Origin: Alphaproteobacteria bacterium | GTDB lineage: Bacteria > Pseudomonadota > Alphaproteobacteria > UBA9219 | Assembly: GCA_026225415.1 (NCBI GenBank) | Contig: JAMFSS010000009.1 | Span: forward strand, 256,062 to 320,061 | Length of the DNA stretch: 64,000 bases | Direction: 5' to 3' | In this document: one piece after another, positions 2,512-47,319 of the stretch | Position numbering within the stretch: the first letter of the stretch is position 1 | How the letters are laid out: each line of letters starts with the position of its first letter | Notes under the pieces: generated by a model | The model's input: the letters and a program-made list of their open reading frames with translations, nothing else | Database searches by the model: none | Told to the model about the DNA's origin: nothing | Translations under genes and position numbers: made by a program

Positions 2512-3960
2512 ATGCCCAAAAATCTGTTCCGCCTGTTGGCCGTGTTTTCCATTCTGGCTGTCTTGGCGGCGTCGCCTTTGTTGAGCCATACGACACAGGC
2601 GAAAACGGCACCCGATGCAGCACCGGCGGCGGAAGCCAAGGCGGATGCCGGTTCTGCCGATACATTCAAACAGCTGACGCTTTTTTCGGATGTGTTGGAA
2701 CGCGTGCGCGCCGATTATGTTGACCCCGTCACCGATGACAAGCTGATTGAAAACGCGTTGAACGGCATGTTGTCATCGCTGGATCCCCATTCCAGCTATA
2801 TGAACAAGAAAAGCTTTGCCGATATGCAAACGCAAACGCGCGGCGAGTTTGGCGGGTTGGGTATCGAAGTGACGATGGAAAACGGCATTGTCAAAGTGGT
2901 GTCGCCCATCGACGATACACCCGCCGCCAAAGCGGGGATTCAACCCAATGATCTGATCACCCATATTGACAGTAAGCCCGTCACCGATTTTACGTTGAAT
3001 GAAGCGGTTGACCATATGCGCGGCGCGCCCGGCACCAAAATTACGCTTACCATTCGTCGCGGCGGTTTATCAGGCCAACCTTTTGATGTGACATTGACGC
3101 GCGCCGTTATCCGCGTGCAATCCGTCAAGTGGGAACCCAAGGGCGACGTTGCCTATATCCGCATCACCGCGTTTAATGAACAGACGCAAGTGGGTTTGAA
3201 CAAAGCTTTGGACGAAGCGGATGAAAAAATTGGCGACAAGCTGATCGGCTATGTGGTCGATTTGCGCAATAACCCCGGCGGTTTGCTGGATCAGGCGGTT
3301 TCCGTTTCCGCAAGTTTCCTTGAAACCGGTAAGGAAGTCGTATCGACCCGTGGCCGCCACAAGGAAGAAGACCAGGCATTCTATGCCAAGGGCGGCGACA
3401 AGGCGCATGGCAAACCGATTGCCGTGTTGATCAATGGCGGTTCGGCTTCGGCTTCGGAAATTGTTGCCGGCGCTTTGCAAGACCATAAGCGCGCCATTCT
3501 GGTTGGCACCAAATCTTTCGGCAAAGGCTCTGTGCAGACCATCATCCCCGTTGCGGGTGGCGGTGCGATGCGTTTGACCACCGCACGATATTACACGCCG
3601 TCTGGCCGTTCGATTCAGGCTTTGGGTATTGAACCGGATATCACCGTTCAACCCGCCAAGCTGGAAAAAGTCGCGATGGGTCCCGGCGTGCATGAAGCGG
3701 ATTTGAAGGGTGCGCTTGCCAACCCCAACGGCACCGCGACGGGTAATGTCGCCAAGGATAAAGACAGCAAGGATAAGGAAAAAGCCGTCGCACCCGAAGA
3801 AGATGAAGATGGTTTGCCGCCGATGGATAATGACAAAGCCAAAGGCAAGGACAAGGATGGCAAGGACGCGAAAGCCGAGCAGCCGTTTGATTACCAGCTA
3901 GCGCGTGCTTTGGATCTGATCCGCGGCATTCATTTGTTTGAAGCGAAAACAGGGAAGTAA
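2512..3960 (+). CDS. ctpA: C-terminal processing peptidase, S41 family (CtpA/Prc-type), exported
   Basis: This periplasmic serine protease belongs to the carboxyl-terminal processing group, which trims or degrades envelope proteins. Residues 1-30 form a signal peptide (RLLAVFSILAVLAASPLL). A PDZ domain covers about 95-180 (GGLGIEVTMENGIVKVVSPI). The S41 domain follows, with the catalytic Ser in NGGSASASEIVAGAL and the catalytic Lys in GTKSFGKGSVQT. The C-terminal 80 residues include a Lys/Asp-rich low-complexity stretch (KDKDSKDKEKAVAPEEDED) that is absent from short homologues and may be a flexible tether. An AGGA ribosome site lies about 7 bases before the ATG. A strong hairpin terminator follows the stop. 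Confidence 0.95.
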   Translation: MPKNLFRLLAVFSILAVLAASPLLSHTTQAKTAPDAAPAAEAKADAGSADTFKQLTLFSDVLERVRADYVDPVTDDKLIENALNGMLSSLDPHSSYMNKKSFADMQTQTRGEFGGLGIEVTMENGIVKVVSPIDDTPAAKAGIQPNDLITHIDSKPVTDFTLNEAVDHMRGAPGTKITLTIRRGGLSGQPFDVTLTRAVIRVQSVKWEPKGDVAYIRITAFNEQTQVGLNKALDEADEKIGDKLIGYVVDLRNNPGGLLDQAVSVSASFLETGKEVVSTRGRHKEEDQAFYAKGGDKAHGKPIAVLINGGSASASEIVAGALQDHKRAILVGTKSFGKGSVQTIIPVAGGGAMRLTTARYYTPSGRSIQALGIEPDITVQPAKLEKVAMGPGVHEADLKGALANPNGTATGNVAKDKDSKDKEKAVAPEEDEDGLPPMDNDKAKGKDKDGKDAKAEQPFDYQLARALDLIRGIHLFEAKTGK

Positions 3961-39206: not shown

Positions 39207-40952
39207 TTAGGCGGCATTCATATTTGTTGAAGTGTCCGAACTAAGTGCGCTTTTAAGCGTGTTAGCGGCTTCATTTGCAAGCTGATCGGCTTTTTCATTT
39301 TGTGGATTTTTATTATGCCCTTTTACCCATGCCAGCTTGACTTTGCGCTGTTGTCGAAGCGCCGCAAACTCGTCCCAAAGAGCTTTATGCTTGTTGATAA
39401 TTGTCCCTTCTTCAGCAGTGCGTACTACATAGTTACTGTCAGTCCTTATAAGGATGGAAGCGCCAACAGGGGTAGCCTTTAAGGCCTCAATAACAGCCAT
39501 AAGTTCCATGCGATTATTGGTCGTCTCGGCTTCAGATCCTTTTATTTCGCGACCATCCGGGAATACGACCGCCCAACCACCGACGCCTTTTTTCTCGGTC
39601 GAGAAGCGATTGGCCCTCAACAAGGAGCCATCAGTATAAATCTCGATGGTTTTGTTTGTTTGACGGAATGGCTTTTTGTCCTGCAGCCGATACGGAAGCT
39701 CGTCCAAACTCTTAGTTTCAATGTCACTCAATAAACACACGCCCCCGGCTCGCCGTCTAGTGGCGCTGTCTGCATCTCTTATCTTGTCCGCAAACCAACG
39801 ACGAAATTTATTGAGCATGCCATCTATTTGATTATCAAGATCACTTATAGTGTTTTGAGCATTGCCGTATGCGAATGCATTCCCCCAACCGCGAACGACG
39901 TTATCGACTAACCGTAAGGTCTGGGCGTATCTCTGTGTATTCTCCGCCCCTTTTTTTCCTTCCATGGCGGCGGTTATGGCTGCGCATCCACGCTGCAAAT
40001 GCCAATCAATGTTTCTGATTAATTTGGTTCGCGCCGCCTTCGATGGCTGAAATAATCCTGGGTGAATGTCAAAACCGAGAAATGTAAATCCGCCGTCAAT
40101 GGAGCCGTATTGTGCTTTTTCCCGACTGGTGCCTTTTGCAAATGGGTCATGGCATTTGAGGCCTAATTTGCTCAGATGTTCTTTTGCGCTATTGAAGGCG
40201 TTGCGAACATGGTCTTCTTTTTCACCTAAAAATATAAAGTCATCAATAAAACGAATGCATACAATTCCGCGCTCATTAAACTGACGATCAAAATCATTGA
40301 GCAAAATGTTGCCGAATAGAGGAGACAATGGCGAGCCTTGAGCCACGCCATCTTCATCAGTGGGAAATACTTTTTTATCTTCACCCAGCTGCTTTTCATT
40401 TTGCAGGGTTACCGTTGTTGCTTTCTCCAATAGCGTCATAAAACTTTGATCATCGATATGCATCCGCAGTGTGCCCAGTACTTTTTGACGCGGAATTCCA
40501 TCAAAAAAACTCGAGATATCAGAACGAATGAAATATTTCTTCCCGCTTAAGAATGCATCTCGAATGAGAGCTAATCCATGCGGGACACTCCTATCAGGAA
40601 CGCCACCTATACATGTAGGAGTCTCTATGACCTCACGAACAAAGGCAATATCTTGTTGAAGCCGGTCTAGTAGGGCGCGTTCGATAATCCGGTTTTCGAC
40701 TGGTGCCATGACAATGCCTCTAAAGCGGCCACCAGACTTCGCCTTCAGAACACCTTTTTGTGGAAGAAATGTGAATTTGTTATCTCTTAGCGCGCGCTGA
40801 ATTCTTATGAGATCAGATTCGGCCCTGCGCTCGAACTCATGAATAGCATCACGCGTTTCTGGCAATGCCGAGTTTTGGCCATTCGACCGAATACGGTACC
40901 AGGCAAAGCGCAATGAATCGCGCTGGGTTGCCTTATCAAAAAGCTTGCCCAT
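39207..40952 (-). CDS. Reverse transcriptase fused to RNase HI
   Basis: The 581-residue fusion has a group II-intron-like RT at residues about 40-330. It contains RGIVMAPVENRIIERALLD, catalytic Asp145 in RSDISSFFDGI, QGSPLSPLFGNILLNDFD (205-222), the FIDD box with Asp237/238 and TFLGFDIHPG. A linker with helices follows. RNase HI occupies about 435-570 with the full active site: Asp441 in YTDGS, Glu483 in RMELM, Asp505 in RTDSN, His546 in VKGHNK and Asp556 in NEKADQLAN. No maturase X/HNH domain and no group II intron RNA are seen. AGAGGA precedes the ATG by 5 bases. The first motif is FIDD rather than YADD. It heads the GIY-YIG/protease operon; a defence role is inferred. Confidence 0.95.
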   Translation of the reverse strand: MGKLFDKATQRDSLRFAWYRIRSNGQNSALPETRDAIHEFERRAESDLIRIQRALRDNKFTFLPQKGVLKAKSGGRFRGIVMAPVENRIIERALLDRLQQDIAFVREVIETPTCIGGVPDRSVPHGLALIRDAFLSGKKYFIRSDISSFFDGIPRQKVLGTLRMHIDDQSFMTLLEKATTVTLQNEKQLGEDKKVFPTDEDGVAQGSPLSPLFGNILLNDFDRQFNERGIVCIRFIDDFIFLGEKEDHVRNAFNSAKEHLSKLGLKCHDPFAKGTSREKAQYGSIDGGFTFLGFDIHPGLFQPSKAARTKLIRNIDWHLQRGCAAITAAMEGKKGAENTQRYAQTLRLVDNVVRGWGNAFAYGNAQNTISDLDNQIDGMLNKFRRWFADKIRDADSATRRRAGGVCLLSDIETKSLDELPYRLQDKKPFRQTNKTIEIYTDGSLLRANRFSTEKKGVGGWAVVFPDGREIKGSEAETTNNRMELMAVIEALKATPVGASILIRTDSNYVVRTAEEGTIINKHKALWDEFAALRQQRKVKLAWVKGHNKNPQNEKADQLANEAANTLKSALSSDTSTNMNAA

Positions 40953-41006
40953 TATGTCCTCTTTTGGGCGACGTCGGATGTCCCGCCCTACTTCTGGAGT
41001 ACTGCA

Positions 41007-41222
41007 CTATGTCGCAGGACCTGATGATGCGCAGCCTGCACACCCGTTGGCACCCTGCACGGCGCAATCAGCGTGTCCGCCAATCGTCGCCGCTCCGCTT
41101 ACCGTCATTCCTGCGCCCGTTACGGACCAGAAAGATGCAAGCAAGTAACAAAGCGCTGCGAAAACCTTCATCTTCGCAGCCATGGTTCCGGCGCGAATGC
41201 CGAAATATACGGTAAAATCCAC
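41007..41222 (-). CDS. Small Gly/Cys-rich protein overlapping repeat copy 1
   Basis: A GTG start at 41222 has a strong ribosome site (GGAGGTG, 5-base spacing). The 71 residues contain a membrane or signal-like stretch (MKVFAALCYLLASFWSV) and a Gly/Ala-rich tail with three Cys (GGHADCAVQGANGCAGCASS). The tail is encoded by the 122-bp repeat. The stop lies 54 bases before the RT start on the same strand, so the two could be co-transcribed. No family is recognised. Confidence 0.52.
   Translation of the reverse strand: MDFTVYFGIRAGTMAAKMKVFAALCYLLASFWSVTGAGMTVSGAATIGGHADCAVQGANGCAGCASSGPAT
41010..41131. repeat. 122-bp perfect direct repeat, copy 1
   Basis: From TGTCGCAGGACCTGATGATG to CGTTACGGACCAGA the sequence is identical, base for base, to 41390-41511. 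The copies are 380 bp apart, start to start. Near its ends each copy carries complementary CGCAGGA and TCCTGCG, so the transcript could fold into a long closed hairpin. It lies 58 bases upstream of the RT start codon. Confidence 0.97.
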
Positions 41223-41245
41223 TGTTGCACCTCCGCTATGGTAGC

Positions 41246-41488
41246 TTAGCTTTTTGCGAAGAAAAGCAAGCGAAATTTCGCCGCCCCCGCCAAGTTTGCC
41301 CGAAAAGAAATCCTATCGACTGCCCGACGCTTCAATTTAACTTGTAAATCGAGGAGCACAGTCAACCCAGAAGTAAGGCTTGCTTGGCTTGTCGCAGGAC
41401 CTGATGATGCGCAGCCTGCACACCCGTTGGCACCCTGCACGGCGCAATCAGCGTGTCCGCCAATCGTCGCCGCTCCGCTTACCGTCAT
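41246..41488 (-). pseudogene. Truncated frame through repeat copy 2
   Basis: The same Gly/Cys-rich reading frame as the 41007-41222 gene is repeated here but lacks the N-terminal hydrophobic part, because a stop codon lies just upstream. It continues past the repeat into an unrelated 47-residue tail. No ribosome site is seen, so it is probably a partial duplicate. Confidence 0.3.
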
Positions 41489-41511
41489 TCCTGCGCCCGT
41501 TACGGACCAGA
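41390..41511. repeat. 122-bp perfect direct repeat, copy 2
   Basis: Identical to 41010-41131 over 122 bases, in the same orientation, with 258 bases between the copies. Flanking bases differ sharply on both sides, so the boundaries are exact. No A-to-N differences exist between copies, which separates this from the template/variable repeats of diversity-generating retroelements. Confidence 0.97.
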
Positions 41512-41757
41512 GACTTCAATAAACGAAAACAGCATAGCCTCGCCGATTCGACATTTATGCTCAAGGGAATTCGGATGCGGGCTATAACGCAGAAAGGGTT
41601 ACCCAAATACAAAAGGCCGGAAACACCTGCCGTATTTTTGCCGTACGTTTTCAGAAAAAAGACGGTGGCACCCGTTTTAAGGTGCAAAAATATTAGGTAA
41701 AAATTAGGTACAGAAGTCGTGCGGCGTCAAAAATACGACTAACCCATTGAAATAATT

Positions 41758-41801
41758 GGCGTCCCCTACGGGATTCGAACCCGTGTTACTACCGTGAAAG
41801 C
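41758..41801 (-). other. attachment-site remnant: 3' half of tRNA-Glu
   Basis: On the minus strand the 44 bases read as the anticodon loop with TTC (CTTTCAC), the 3' anticodon strand, the variable loop, a perfect T arm (ACGGG-TTCGAAT-CCCGT) and the acceptor 3' strand ending in CCA. The 5' half is absent, since the adjoining bases do not complete the anticodon stem. Such fragments are made when a tyrosine integrase inserts into the tRNA 3' end. The orientation places the element on the right (41.8 kb onward) with the intact tRNA-Glu at its far end. Confidence 0.82.
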
Positions 41802-42077: not shown

Positions 42078-43070
42078 TTAAGACTCCTTGACGCGTTCTT
42101 CGAAACTCCAAGTAAAGCTTTGCTTTTCGGGTATTGTGCGTTCTGTGGCACTGAGATCGAGTTGAACTTCGCTGATTTTCCCTTGTGCTAGCCAAGGCTG
42201 AAGTTGATATAGATGCGGATAAATATGGAATGAGACCTGCTTGCCTGACATGTGGTTATCTTTTGCTGGACAGGGCAAGAAAATCTCGTAACTGAAATTG
42301 CCGGTTGCGATGAAGAAGGTCATATAGGGGGCGTCGATTTGCTCTTTTCGCCGCAACAGCGCAACGATTGGTTTGGGAAATGGCTTGGGGGTGAAAACAA
42401 CGGTCTGATAGCAGTAATGCGCGCCATCGCTGTAAACCATCCCTGTTTGCAGATCATCCTCACAAAGCCAAAGACGCAGCTCTTCGAAGTGTGGCAATTC
42501 GTCCTCTGGCAGTAGGGCGTAGGCTGATTTGCATAGTGCTTTGTATGCGGCAAGTGGGCGATATGATTTGTTAACGAAAAAAACCGTTAGAGTTTGTTTT
42601 TCTTCATCGACCAGATGTGAGCCATCATTCCGGCCGACATGCAGTTTTAGGTTATTGTCAGTGAATGACATTGTTGATGGGACGCTTGGCAGCTCACCAG
42701 CCAGAGGCAAAATTGGCGTTCCACGTTTTGCCTGGACTCCGGAGATACTGCGCAGCGGAAGAGTCATTTTTCCGAGATCATCTTCAAAGCTACAGAAGCG
42801 CTTGTTACATTGGTCACATTCATAAAGTGACGTTAAGGCCTTGTTTCCTAATAGTTCGGATACTGCATGCGCACGTTTTTTAAATGTGCGTTCAGGTTTG
42901 CTTCCTTGGCAGTAACGGCAACGATAAGGCAATTTACCTAGAACCTTTTTTTCATTCCTATCAATCGCTAAAAACAAGATCTGATCATAGTTCTTGTTAT
43001 AAAATTGTAGTGCCTTTAGAGCATTTTCTTCACAGGCGATGTTCTGGCTTTCTGGGCGTGCTTCAATCAT
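42078..43070 (-). CDS. HNH-like zinc-binding protein, candidate defence nuclease
   Basis: The 330-residue protein has CRYCQG near residue 51, then FKKRAHAVSELLGNKAL and ECDQCNKRF. This is the spacing of an HNH-type motif in which paired CxxC zinc knuckles hold a catalytic His and an Asn. The remaining ~230 residues (VSFHIYPHLYQLQPWLAQGK and others) match nothing I know. It is the first gene inside the island and divergent from the STAND NTPase, sharing about 120 bases of control region. A DNA-cleaving role is inferred from the motif. Confidence 0.76.
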   Translation of the reverse strand: MIEARPESQNIACEENALKALQFYNKNYDQILFLAIDRNEKKVLGKLPYRCRYCQGSKPERTFKKRAHAVSELLGNKALTSLYECDQCNKRFCSFEDDLGKMTLPLRSISGVQAKRGTPILPLAGELPSVPSTMSFTDNNLKLHVGRNDGSHLVDEEKQTLTVFFVNKSYRPLAAYKALCKSAYALLPEDELPHFEELRLWLCEDDLQTGMVYSDGAHYCYQTVVFTPKPFPKPIVALLRRKEQIDAPYMTFFIATGNFSYEIFLPCPAKDNHMSGKQVSFHIYPHLYQLQPWLAQGKISEVQLDLSATERTIPEKQSFTWSFEERVKES

Positions 43071-43188
43071 GGTTTGCTATGCTGCTTGGTTGGGTGACAA
43101 CTATATTAGTTAAGCGGCTAAATTGTAAAAACAACCGATTCTAATATACACTCCAAATGATGTGGTCTTTTTTGATGAAAGTTAGCTT

Positions 43189-46100
43189 TTGCAAGGTTTT
43201 GATCCAACCCTTAATGGCCTGATTACGCCAGGTCCAAAAAATGAAACAGCCCCTCAAGGAAACGTAGAGCGGGAAGCTATCGATGCGTTGCGCGGGTATG
43301 CTTATCAAATTGCAGTGACAGCGCTGGCTTGGCTGGAACTGTCCCCTGCAGAGAGGCTTTATATTGAAGTTGCCGAAGATTATGCTATTTGCGCCGACGA
43401 TGCTGTCAAGGCTGTCCAAGTTAAAGATACAGAACAGAGCGGAAAGATTACGCTTAATAGCACCAATGTAAAAGAAACCCTCAAGAACTTTATTGATCTG
43501 GTTGAGAAAAACCCCGGACAAAAAGTTACACTTCATTTTCTCACAACGTCTGAAGTTGGTATTGAAAGGTCGAAAATCAATCGACCGGCTGGTGAAGCAG
43601 GACTTCTGCATTGGAGAAAAGTTGCGGCGAGTGGTGATGTTGTGCATCTCCGTCGGATTCTTACGGCTGACGAAATGCCAAAAGAAGTGAAGACGTTTGT
43701 TGATGCACGTGACGATGAGACCTTAAGGGGCGAGCTTTTAAAGCGAATTCACTGGGATTGCGGCAAACCCAATTTCTCGCAGATATTAGTTGAGCTTGAG
43801 CAAAGTATTGCTCAAGTTGGACGGCAACGTTTCGGTATGGCTGGTACAGCGTCAAAGTATGCTGCCTCCATGGTCATGTACCGCATCCTTCAGAAAGCTA
43901 CACTCAAAACGCGCGAAGAGCGCGTTCTTCTGCGAGCAGACCTAGACACGCTTCTGGATGCGGCAAGTCGAGTTTCCTTACGGCAACGAGATTTTGATGT
44001 GATTATGGGGCGTCTTGCTGCTGCACCCCTTGCTGCAATTGGCGGCGAAAATGGGACAGTAATCGATGTGGGTGGATATCCACCATGGATATATCTTGAT
44101 CAAGATATAAGGGGGCCGGTTCTTGCTTTAGAAAGACACCTGCAAGACGGGATATGTTCAGCGCTGTTAACATCGCCTTATGTCGTTTTATCTGGCGCAA
44201 CTGGTCTTGGAAAAACACTTCTTGCTCGAAAAGCCATTCAACACTTAAGAAAAACGTACGCACTTATCGATTTTCGAGACCTTGAACCGGCCAGCCTCCA
44301 GCAACGGCTGGACGTATTGGTTTCGTATCTGCATAACCTGCGAGTCGACGCAGTAATATTTGATGACTTGAATCATCTTGAGGATGGTTCTGTACGAAAA
44401 TCGTTTAACCGTGTGCTGTCGGCATTACAGCGTCGAGATCAGCTCGCAATTATAACGTGCTACAGAAAACCATCAGTATCGATTGCAACCGATCTTAATA
44501 TAGCTTCCTCGAACTTTTTTGATGTTCCTTATTTCGCAGAAAACGAAATAAGCGATTTAGTTAAACTTGCCGGCGGGGATCCGGCAAAGTGGGCTAAAAT
44601 TTCTATGTTCGCAAGTGGCAATGGGCATCCCCAACTTGCTGGTGCGTTTATACAGGGGGTTTCCTCTAGAAACTGGCCCCAAGATGAACTTAGAAAAATT
44701 ACACAAACAGGATTTACATCTGCTGACACCGTTGCGCTACGTGATGAGGCTAGGCAGCGTCTAATTGAGGGATTGGAAAAAGACAGCCAGCTTCTTTTGT
44801 GGCGCACAAGCTTAATCATCGGCTCCTTTGTTCGTGATCTTGCAATTGCTTTGGGGGATGTAACCCCCAGATTAGCGCAAGCTGGCGTAACGCTGGATAG
44901 GCTCACAGGCTCTTGGGTTGAGCCCCTTGCGAGTGATCGTTTTCGCGTTTCCCCTTTGCTAGCTAGAGCTGGAGACAAAATTCTTGGCGAGAATGAGAGG
45001 GGGGCCGTTCATTCAGCAATTGCACGCCACCTCGTTAAAGATAAGGGCGTTTCTGTTGTGGATGCCGATACGGTCTTAGTTCACGGGTTGGCGGGGAAAG
45101 ATAGTTCTGTTCTTATGGCGATCGCAACAGCAACCATCTCCGCGCCGCAGAGTATTCTAACGTCTATCGCAGATTATTCTTTTGCCTTTCCTAATCTGAA
45201 GCTGGACGCCGTTATTTTTCCTGAACATTTGGGGTTATCGGCCCTTTTGAGGCTAGCGCAATGCAAAGTAGTTCTTGCAAAAGGCGTAATCGAAGAAATT
45301 GAAAAGGTGACCAGCACGCTGTTGAGAGAAATAGACTCTCTCACAGGAAAAATGCGAAGTGGTGTTGAAAGCGTATCACTTATTAATCTGCTTTCTATTA
45401 CTGGTGGTGCTGGCCGAATTCCTAATTGGCTGGAGCTAATAAATAGATTTAGACGACTTCTAATATCCGATAAAGAATTAGCAAAAAGAATGGAGGGCGG
45501 TGAAAAGTTTCCTGGTTCAGAACATCTAAGTACGCTGGGATGCTTTCTGATCACGGGGCTTTCTCGTATGCCGTCGGTAAAGTCTCTTGAAGAATTTTTT
45601 CTTAAATTAGATCGGCTGAGCGCCAATGATCGTGGACAGCTGCTTTCTGAATTTCATCAAGACAACAGTGACTATGATTTAATAGTGAGCGGTGCCTGGC
45701 TCACGGAACACGAGGCAGGCGCCGTCGATTGGTTGAATAACGAAAAGTACTATCTCCGAATGGCGGAGATGGCTATGGCCTGGGGGCAGCCGATATTAGC
45801 CGCCTACTGTCATAAAGCTCGTGCAGTGATGATTGACGAATATGGGAACCAGCCAATCTTAGCTCTGACCGCACTGGATGAAGCTGCTCTTAAGCTTGAT
45901 GGCAGCGATATTATTATACGCGAACGTATTAAAGTATTTTGGCGGATGAAGAATTATTCACAAGTTGTAGAATTAATAACGCCTGTAGTAGATGTTGTAG
46001 TCTTGAGCAATTCGACCGATCGTATGTTTGTATTAAGAGAGGCGGCAATAAGTGCTGCAAATATTGGTAGAACAAAACTTGCTGCGAAATGGTTTCATGG

Positions 46101-47319
46101 CGCGGCTCAAGCGGTAAAAGATACTCCCGAGAACCAACCGCGTATCATAGGCTTCTCTGTCGACGAGGCCATGGCAGAATTTGATGCAGGAAATCGCAGC
46201 AGATGCATAGAGCTTCTTGCGCAAGCAATGACGAATCTTTCGAAGCTCGAGAGCGATCAGTCAACGGAAGCGATGTATTGCAAACATCTTGTGCGGCACG
46301 CTGTGCTATGCGTTCAATTGCGATCTGAGGCATCACTGCCTAGGAACTTATTTAACGAAATACTGTGGTTGCCGGGCTCCGGCAGCAACCCTCAGCCGCC
46401 AAAGGAACTTCGCGAGCGTCCGCTTGCACCTCTCGACATGGCTTGGTACCTGCTAGCCGAGGCGGAAATCATGTCAAGCGCGGACGTTGGTGTATTTCGT
46501 AATCTGAGAGCTCGATTACAATCCGGTCCTGTACAGCTTCAGGAAATGACAATTCGCAAAAAGCCAATTGACGCTGCAATTATCTATAAAGATGGAAATA
46601 GGTTTGCTGGAAGTTTTCATAGTTATCTGGAAAGCCTGTCATTATTTTTCTCTCTTTCAGAAGAATATAAACAAACGTTCGATGTTATGAATCCTACCAG
46701 AGGCGAGGTGCCGACAGTTCCCATCAAGCAGCTTATAGGCAACGAAAGGGTAAACCTTTCTGCTGTTGAAGCAATTTTGGCTTTCTCGATGAGTGTAGCA
46801 TTAACGGGAGAGTTTGATAAAATTGATGAATTAGAAAGAGGGCTCCAATCAAAGGTTGGACTTGATTTCCCAGGGAGTAAGATATTTCAGCGCTTCCGAG
46901 GTGAGGGCGCAGAACTTAATCGGCTTAGCGAAGAAATCACCACAATAATTAAAAAAATGAGGCCTGAGTCTCACCTTGTGCCATTCGACATTTGTGGAGT
47001 GGCGTTACGGTTTTCTGAATTCGCACATGGTTCAAATTTTAAACGAGATTTAATACCAATATTAGGCAGTTGGTTTATTGACCATTGGCGCAATATTCTG
47101 ATCAATGAAAGTTTCAGACTGAAATCACCAATGCTGCATAAGCCGCAGATAGAAGAAGTCATAAATAACCAAGATATGGATATTGAGCAGAAGCTAGCCC
47201 TCCTCCTTCTAGCCGGCTGCGATGCTACAGAGCTAAGGCTTGCAGATGAATACAGAAGAATACTGCAGCAACGAAGCTTAAGCTCTGCTCGTTCCGATGG
47301 GCGCAAAGTCGAGGCCTAA
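43189..47319 (+). CDS. Avs-like STAND NTPase with N-terminal Cap4/DUF4297-type nuclease
   Basis: The 1376-residue protein has three parts. Residues 25-120 match the Cap4/DUF4297 PD-(D/E)xK nuclease (LRGYAYQIAVTALAWLE, Glu63-Asp64, and the QVKD motif at 77-80, then FLTTSEVG). A P-loop NTPase follows, with Walker A SGATGLGKTLLARKA (335-349) and Walker B VDAVIFDDLNHL. The last ~700 residues are helical, TPR-like, and presumably the sensor. This is the layout of antiviral STAND (AVAST/Avs) proteins, in which phage proteins trigger DNA cleavage. The start is uncertain: a TTG at 43189 is the first codon after a stop, and no in-frame ATG exists until far downstream. Confidence 0.88.
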   Translation: MQGFDPTLNGLITPGPKNETAPQGNVEREAIDALRGYAYQIAVTALAWLELSPAERLYIEVAEDYAICADDAVKAVQVKDTEQSGKITLNSTNVKETLKNFIDLVEKNPGQKVTLHFLTTSEVGIERSKINRPAGEAGLLHWRKVAASGDVVHLRRILTADEMPKEVKTFVDARDDETLRGELLKRIHWDCGKPNFSQILVELEQSIAQVGRQRFGMAGTASKYAASMVMYRILQKATLKTREERVLLRADLDTLLDAASRVSLRQRDFDVIMGRLAAAPLAAIGGENGTVIDVGGYPPWIYLDQDIRGPVLALERHLQDGICSALLTSPYVVLSGATGLGKTLLARKAIQHLRKTYALIDFRDLEPASLQQRLDVLVSYLHNLRVDAVIFDDLNHLEDGSVRKSFNRVLSALQRRDQLAIITCYRKPSVSIATDLNIASSNFFDVPYFAENEISDLVKLAGGDPAKWAKISMFASGNGHPQLAGAFIQGVSSRNWPQDELRKITQTGFTSADTVALRDEARQRLIEGLEKDSQLLLWRTSLIIGSFVRDLAIALGDVTPRLAQAGVTLDRLTGSWVEPLASDRFRVSPLLARAGDKILGENERGAVHSAIARHLVKDKGVSVVDADTVLVHGLAGKDSSVLMAIATATISAPQSILTSIADYSFAFPNLKLDAVIFPEHLGLSALLRLAQCKVVLAKGVIEEIEKVTSTLLREIDSLTGKMRSGVESVSLINLLSITGGAGRIPNWLELINRFRRLLISDKELAKRMEGGEKFPGSEHLSTLGCFLITGLSRMPSVKSLEEFFLKLDRLSANDRGQLLSEFHQDNSDYDLIVSGAWLTEHEAGAVDWLNNEKYYLRMAEMAMAWGQPILAAYCHKARAVMIDEYGNQPILALTALDEAALKLDGSDIIIRERIKVFWRMKNYSQVVELITPVVDVVVLSNSTDRMFVLREAAISAANIGRTKLAAKWFHGAAQAVKDTPENQPRIIGFSVDEAMAEFDAGNRSRCIELLAQAMTNLSKLESDQSTEAMYCKHLVRHAVLCVQLRSEASLPRNLFNEILWLPGSGSNPQPPKELRERPLAPLDMAWYLLAEAEIMSSADVGVFRNLRARLQSGPVQLQEMTIRKKPIDAAIIYKDGNRFAGSFHSYLESLSLFFSLSEEYKQTFDVMNPTRGEVPTVPIKQLIGNERVNLSAVEAILAFSMSVALTGEFDKIDELERGLQSKVGLDFPGSKIFQRFRGEGAELNRLSEEITTIIKKMRPESHLVPFDICGVALRFSEFAHGSNFKRDLIPILGSWFIDHWRNILINESFRLKSPMLHKPQIEEVINNQDMDIEQKLALLLLAGCDATELRLADEYRRILQQRSLSSARSDGRKVEA

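Follow-up and report, generated by a model that had tools for sequence, protein, structure and literature searches.

The window, the entire stretch of 64,000 nucleotides analysed in this study, contains a compact locus where two identical direct repeats, a pair of complementary elements and what appear to be the two parts of a small gene in permuted order precede the gene of a reverse transcriptase (RT). This architecture, comprising the repeats, the complementarity of the elements a and a′, the order of the parts and the permuted frame, is well supported. We propose, as a reading that we give an even chance, that the locus constitutes a self-primed mini-retroelement, in which strand transfer by the RT between the repeats would generate a cDNA, circular or concatenated, in which the permuted gene is restored. 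Read in the direction of the RT gene, a promoter-like site is followed by the distal repeat (rep1), element a, a C-terminal coding part (C), a second promoter-like site, a ribosome binding site (RBS) and start codon, a signal-peptide-like N part (N), the proximal repeat (rep2), element a′ and finally the RT:

41559..41564, minus strand: possible -35-like hexamer TTGAGC (P1), 53 nt before rep1, of low confidence, its position being outside the 31-41 nt of 12 other loci
41390..41511, minus strand: rep1, the distal repeat, identical to rep2 (repeat comparison)
41366..41379, minus strand: element a, 11-24 nt after rep1, primer-binding-site-like (ungapped helix test)
41246..41389, minus strand: C-terminal coding part following rep1, with 47 codons and a stop in the frame of N-rep2 (frame tables, codon test; coding evidence moderate)
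41243..41269, minus strand: promoter-like site P2, TTGCTT, 15 nt, TAAGCT, with TAAGCT overlapping the stop codon of C (flank scan)
41007..41222, minus strand: small open reading frame N-rep2, 71 aa, GTG start, Shine-Dalgarno (SD)-like GGAGG at 41230-41234, its N part a hydrophobic signal-like segment (ORF list, frame table; SD from the sequence)
41010..41131, minus strand: rep2, the proximal repeat, 3′ part of the small open reading frame (repeat comparison, frame table)
40985..40998, minus strand: element a′, complementary to a and located 12-25 nt after rep2 (complementarity kept in 15 G2L4-like loci)
39207..40952, minus strand: G2L4-family RT with C-terminal RNase H, 581 aa, active site FIDD (ORF; RVT_1 and RNase_H; PDB 9d5x, E 9.6e-85)

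The reverse transcriptase

Judged by homology, the RT of the window belongs to the G2L4 (group II intron-like 4) family and carries a fused RNase H. Among solved structures, the G2L4 RT from Pseudomonas aeruginosa (PDB 9D5X/9D4S; E 9.6e-85, residues 4-412) is closest to it, belongs to the same family and the same HMM group and equally contains an I in the YxDD motif; the best RT outside the G2L4 family is found at E 3.9e-14. G2L4 RTs, in which A is replaced by I in YxDD (PMC4244168, PMC12337344), are reported to repair breaks by microhomology end joining and to perform snapback DNA synthesis, with the I in YIDD favouring strand annealing, and they are further characterized by the RT3a plug arginines R190/R191 and the serines S28-S30 (PMC12337344). 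The P. aeruginosa enzyme is described as a free-standing repair enzyme, a term applied to domesticated group II-like RTs, and the parts of that account drawn on here contain no mention of genomic repeats or of a partner gene beside the RT (PMC12337344). Upstream or noncoding sequence, repeats or an operon are not mentioned in PMC13015716 either, and a survey of literature other than the founding G2L4 paper (Cell 2022), in part of abridged scope, turned up no comparable case of a bacterial RT associated with direct repeats, strand transfer or a permuted gene.

In contrast to its P. aeruginosa counterpart, the window RT contains the C-terminal RNase H and the sequence FIDD, it lacks the plug arginine pair, in whose vicinity a KK is aligned in a stretch that is two residues shorter, and it keeps S28 as the sole serine of S28-S30. 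Since, in alignments judged by eye, R190/R191 are thus absent and S28-S30 incomplete, the protein would at most be a divergent member of the family. Among 18 G2L4-like loci, the motif reads YIDD in 15, FIDD, as in the window, in two and YVDD in one. A Pfam RNase H was detected in two of nine G2L4-like RTs scanned, that of the window and its 57% relative from genome G204, and the RT stretches of the seven other loci gave no such match.

Several assignments to known systems were rejected. The generic RT model of PADLOC scores the protein higher (144 bits) than RT_UG17 (125 bits) and UG4 (101 bits), and no SLATT protein was found among the eight window proteins scanned, which speaks against a DRT10/UG17 system, and the NCBIfam Drt2 model reaches 32 bits compared to a cut-off of 390. 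Retron RTs carry the motifs NAxxH and VTG, neither of which was seen upon inspection of the sequence by eye.

The repeat pair and its conservation

The two repeats, whose starts are separated by 380 nt, are identical at 122 of 122 positions and located upstream of the RT gene. The sequence diverges directly beyond both of their ends, and a search of the whole 2.02-Mb genome revealed no other match. The original prediction had described these perfect 122-bp direct repeats and the complementary CGCAGGA/TCCTGCG near the ends of each copy, and both are found in the sequence. It had also proposed that each copy folds on itself, which holds for the minus strand, the sense strand of the RT (z -2.1; 6 of 200 shuffles as good), but not for the plus strand, which folds no better than its shuffles (z +0.36; 121 of 200 as good). 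Folding is pronounced in the upstream RNA as a whole (40953-41520; z -4.8; 0 of 100 shuffles as good), and a role of this RNA as non-coding template of the RT, as had been suggested, is plausible. An Rfam search of the window gave no match.

Relatives of the RT were collected from 385 genomes of the class of the window, 398 of its phylum, 292 of one order, 369 of another class, smaller sets, plasmids and viral contigs, and their loci were split by a profile built from eight RTs. We classified as G2L4-like the 18 loci with a score above 390 and YIDD, FIDD or YVDD; the next score is 279, from a partial YLDD sequence lacking its upstream region (L034), followed by scores of at most 187, mostly with YADD. 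Two direct repeats of 59-144 nt, spaced by 321-382 nt, are located just upstream of the RT in 15 of the 18 loci, which were found in genomes belonging to two classes, in a plasmid record of P. aeruginosa and on viral contigs. Two further contigs end 82 and 152 nt upstream of the RT (L139, L140), so that 15 of 16 assessable loci contain the pair and the sixteenth (L035/L067) a single repeat. Homologous RT operons devoid of the repeat, which the original prediction had named as evidence against it, were thus not encountered among the assessable loci, and its suggestion of a recent duplication does not account for a pair that the RT family has conserved while the repeat sequence itself varies from lineage to lineage. 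Chance or an assembly artefact can be ruled out as origin of the repeats, because many separate assemblies share the same design. As control served 73 RT loci outside the G2L4 group, 61 of them with at least 700 nt of upstream sequence, not all independent since some places were fetched twice, where a comparable pair is found in one case (L036; 119 or 126 nt in two comparisons, spacing 375 nt); a 42-nt pair with a spacing of 205 is found in L045. One locus at the end of a range, where a 357-nt tandem duplication is located (L060), was excluded from classification and repeat counts.

Within the 15 paired loci, 9 of 1901 positions differ between copies inside the detected boundaries, which were set by ungapped extension so that differences past the repeat ends are not counted; owing to a 13-nt indel, the repeat of G1049 is counted as 59 nt and its a/a′ windows were placed by hand. 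The L036 locus, from genome G321, was excluded from the 15-locus counts of repeat differences, P1 and P2. Between loci, the divergence of the repeats ranges from 1.5% (G888 and V142) to 49%, in keeping with a concerted evolution of the two copies. In the comparison of the P. aeruginosa plasmid with the viral contig L098, the RT DNA is 79% identical (958/1220), the middle part matches at 235 of 244 positions and both repeat copies at 132 of 132 nt.

With two near-identical repeats beside an RT, one of them inside the 3′ part of a gene, the locus resembles a diversity-generating retroelement (DGR). The statement in the original prediction that it is not a typical DGR is borne out: adenine-specific differences are absent in the window, because its copies do not differ, and of the nine differences in the family one is located at an A of rep1 and three at an A of rep2, without adenine bias.

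In L143 (G888, 588-1444), a 361-nt unit is found twice in exact tandem in the order rep-mid-rep-mid-rep, and an N-rep-C frame is contiguous there. In L035/L067 (G165, about 3515-3680), a lone repeat directly precedes the RT and is followed by a′-like sequence, resembling a solo LTR. Finally, L036 (918-1411) encodes a YADD RT outside the G2L4 group with a repeat pair of its own, and since the frame stays open through both repeats, a concatemer of this element would be a never-ending open reading frame.

Further scans of phages, plasmids, E. coli genomes and viral contigs uncovered no new G2L4 locus, and neither did a scan of genome contigs, whose matches were drawn by RNase H. Scans of the plasmid and viral-contig collections did not uncover the locus that encodes the G2L4 RT studied in P. 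aeruginosa. A DNA-motif scan of viral contigs returned 38 loci, three of them with repeats of at least 60 nt at a spacing of 250-700 nt, of which L137 is a contig already in the set and L109 and L110 contain no RT-like motif within the available stretch.

Complementary elements and promoter-like sites

Complementary stretches of 8-17 nt, corresponding to a and a′, are present in 15 of 15 loci with clade-specific sequences. The mean score of a with its own a′ is 26.6 (16 loci including G321), compared to 16.9 (sd 3.4) for cross-clade pairings, and in each of two sets of seven clade representatives, all of 1854 derangements stayed below the observed sum. In 11 of 15 loci the own score exceeds every cross-clade pairing; in the remainder it is reached by 2 of 28 (G204), 3 of 30 (G252), 1 of 18 (G701) and 5 of 30 (G1049) such pairings. 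These values refer to ungapped helices, a test chosen after the outcome of an energy-based duplex test of the flanks of 10 loci, which did not separate own (-26.2) from foreign pairings (-23.0, sd 5.2) and was replaced because it allows large bulges. In the ungapped helix test, no a:a′ pairing was found at the YADD locus of G321. The helix is contained in the single-sequence minimum free energy fold of three of 16 loci, namely the window, G763 and V138. Two candidate hairpins, one after rep2 (p 0.025-0.8 singly) and one after AAAAAC near the start of N (p 0.02-0.73 singly), are both weak.

In 14 of 15 loci, rep2 is preceded at a distance of 80-160 nt by a site of the form TTGnnn, 15-17 nt, TAnnnT, compared to 0.54 loci on average and at most three of 15 after shuffling. 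The site is present in six of seven clade representatives, a number reached by 0 of 1000 shuffles. Before rep1, the start of a TTG with A, G or T as next base is located at a distance of 31-41 nt in 12 of 15 loci, compared to 1-4 loci in windows further upstream and 1-8 in windows before rep2; this distance is not found in the window, G204 and V099. The parameters of the P2 test and the distance range of P1 were set after inspection of the flanks.

A putative permuted small gene

In 16 of 16 paired loci (the 15 and L036), one frame, picked for each locus from frame tables, enters rep2 from the start of N and leaves rep1 into C, where it stays open for at least 41 codons. N-rep2 by itself provides the N-terminus and a merely variable tail, and the remainder is found in rep1-C. 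Since the frame of N-rep2 continues as rep1-C, a complete small protein would only result if rep2 were joined to the sequence following rep1. In the translations, N and the start of the repeat form the hydrophobic, signal-like segment.

The codon changes point to the repeat as a coding sequence in the frame of N-rep2. In eight pairs of loci, which partly overlap and are not independent, they are conservative in this frame (z 2.7, 2.1, 2.7, 1.4, 3.0, 1.7, 0.2 and 1.8) and mostly near zero in other frames, with values up to 2.1 for the pair of P. aeruginosa and G1049. For C, whose coding nature appears moderately supported, the values are 2.6, 0.4, 2.3, 1.0, 2.6, 1.0, 1.4 and -0.4, with other frames reaching 2.5, and the length over which its frame stays open is, taken by itself, somewhat unusual (Fisher p 0.015 and 0.035 in two sets of seven clade representatives). 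The signal is weaker in N (2.3, 0.9, 1.1, -0.4, 1.5, -0.5, 0.6 and 1.7). Searches of the small protein against Pfam, PHROG and NCBIfam revealed no family above noise. Near the start of N, the DNA motif GCAAAAACGTGCCA is identical in the very divergent loci L064, L065, L070, L146, L063 and L098, a conservation that appears to be more than coding alone would require.

Genomic surroundings

The RT gene is followed on the same strand by genes for a 156-aa protein with weak UvrC/Cho-type matches and a protein with a weak trypsin-like match. On the other side of the locus (42078-47319), an HNH-like gene is found together with a gene for a 1376-aa ATPase whose N-terminus is of the LmuA/DUF4297 type, possibly a defence locus. 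A copy of the 3′ end of tRNA-Glu (41746-41800) is located 235 nt from rep1, with the intact tRNA-Glu (G000:C1:321169-321222) about 23 kb away in the same orientation, which suggests an integrated island between them. The tRNA-Glu repeat is a different sequence from rep1 and rep2, which rules out the latter as attachment-site repeat. In the P. aeruginosa record, the RT is found near an integrase, a TIR-domain protein and an inovirus-type gene. The annotations thus suggest mobile and defence-related surroundings, with the role in defence itself being putative.

Discussion

The described architecture invites comparison with known elements. Self-priming is found in Tf1, and LTR retrotransposons and retroviruses display an R-PBS-R layout, which the locus resembles in architecture only, by its terminal direct repeats, a complementary, primer-like element next to the 5′ repeat and the RNase H of two members. 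In contrast to LTR retrotransposons, the RT is of the group II type, the element has a length of about 0.5 kb, no integrase or gag was detected among the eight window proteins scanned and no dispersed copies were found in the genome, where the repeat is confined to this locus. A second likeness concerns DRT2 (Neo), where rolling-circle reverse transcription, with the RT jumping on the RNA, produces a concatenated cDNA and thereby a new open reading frame, as described in the parts of PMC11100668 considered here. The creation of an open reading frame by an RT-made concatenated cDNA, which is a proposal in our case, is shared with this system, whereas the RT belongs to another family, long direct repeats take the place of a 3-nt motif, the a:a′ pair is self-complementary, the frame has the same orientation as the RT transcript and is closed by a stop where C ends, and the unit of 380 nt is not a multiple of three.

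In our proposed mechanism, a transcript would start at or near rep1 and run through rep1-a-C-N-rep2-a′, equivalent to R-PBS ... R-primer. Element a′, whose free RNA 3′ end would demand processing, would pair with a just downstream of rep1 and be extended by the G2L4 RT, which would copy rep1 up to the 5′ end of the RNA in the manner of a ‘strong stop’. Such self-priming at a would account for the extent of the repeat, which begins roughly where transcription presumably starts and reaches the border of a. The strand annealing and snapback synthesis reported for the G2L4 RT speak in favour of the mechanism. The RNase H, which in the window and G204 is fused to the RT, would free the cDNA for annealing to rep2, and after this transfer the RT would copy N, C, a and, once more, rep1. 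Repeated transfer or the joining of terminal repeats would then lead to a concatenated or circular cDNA where N-rep is followed by C, and P2-RBS-N-rep-C would be united in a complete gene. Its product would be a small protein with a signal peptide that perhaps acts against phages, like the effector of DRT2. From the transcript to the role of the product, with priming and transfer in between, each of these steps is a proposal. The tandem units of L143 and the lone repeat of L067 are forms expected from transfer or recombination between the repeats, and they could also stem from ordinary recombination.

The latter possibility leads to a rather unlikely alternative, where rep1 and rep2 would undergo homologous recombination or single-strand annealing, which would excise a circle or alter the number of units and thereby join N-rep-C, with the RT repairing the locus. 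Long identical repeats recombine readily, one locus carries a single repeat and another two tandem units, and the excerpted account of the G2L4 RT describes an end-joining repair enzyme (PMC12337344), yet such a switch would leave unexplained the conserved complementarity of a and a′ at the repeat edges, the defined distance between rep1 and the -35-like site preceding it and the restriction of the pair to the G2L4 RT family. We consider it similarly improbable that rep1-a ... rep2-a′ acts as a structured non-coding RNA, bound by the RT or copied to short DNA in a retron- or DRT-like manner, with the open frames as by-products and the repeats kept alike by gene conversion. The folding of the upstream RNA of the window (z -4.8 compared to shuffles, with a:a′ paired), the conserved complementarity and the moderate coding signal of C would all fit such a system, but in one frame of the repeat, seven of eight pairs show conservative codon changes (z 1.4-3.0), and a start codon, SD and P2 precede N. 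It is very unlikely that the RT overwrites one repeat from the other as template and target, in a DGR-like retrohoming without adenine mutagenesis that keeps or swaps the C-terminal part of the small protein: although the copies are near-identical within loci, vary in sequence between lineages and begin near the likely transcription start, the copying of an identical sequence has no evident purpose, adenine bias is absent, and C and the permuted frame would be unused. That a repair RT, for whose family such activity is reported in the sections of PMC12337344 used here, merely neighbours a duplicated small open reading frame without joint function is highly improbable in light of the pair in 15 of 16 assessable G2L4-like loci compared to 1 of 61 others and its fixed order and spacing.

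Returning to the self-primed mini-retroelement, we put forward the broader view, to which we assign somewhat less than an even chance, that G2L4 RTs might not be free-standing repair enzymes but the engine of a retrovirus-like retroelement with repeat, self-primer, primer-binding site, strand transfer and sometimes RNase H, which from circularly permuted pieces would build a gene that is intact in cDNA only, probably as conditional defence response. Should the mechanism prove wrong, an explanation would still be needed for the permuted frame, for the complementary a:a′ elements and for the conservation of the repeat pair. If it is right, an RT family studied as repair enzyme would have a dedicated partner in cis and probably another natural job, and the locus would provide a second route besides DRT2 by which reverse transcription makes genes that are unreadable in genomic order. 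It would also show that a domesticated group II-type RT can carry out a retrovirus-like transfer between repeats in bacteria.
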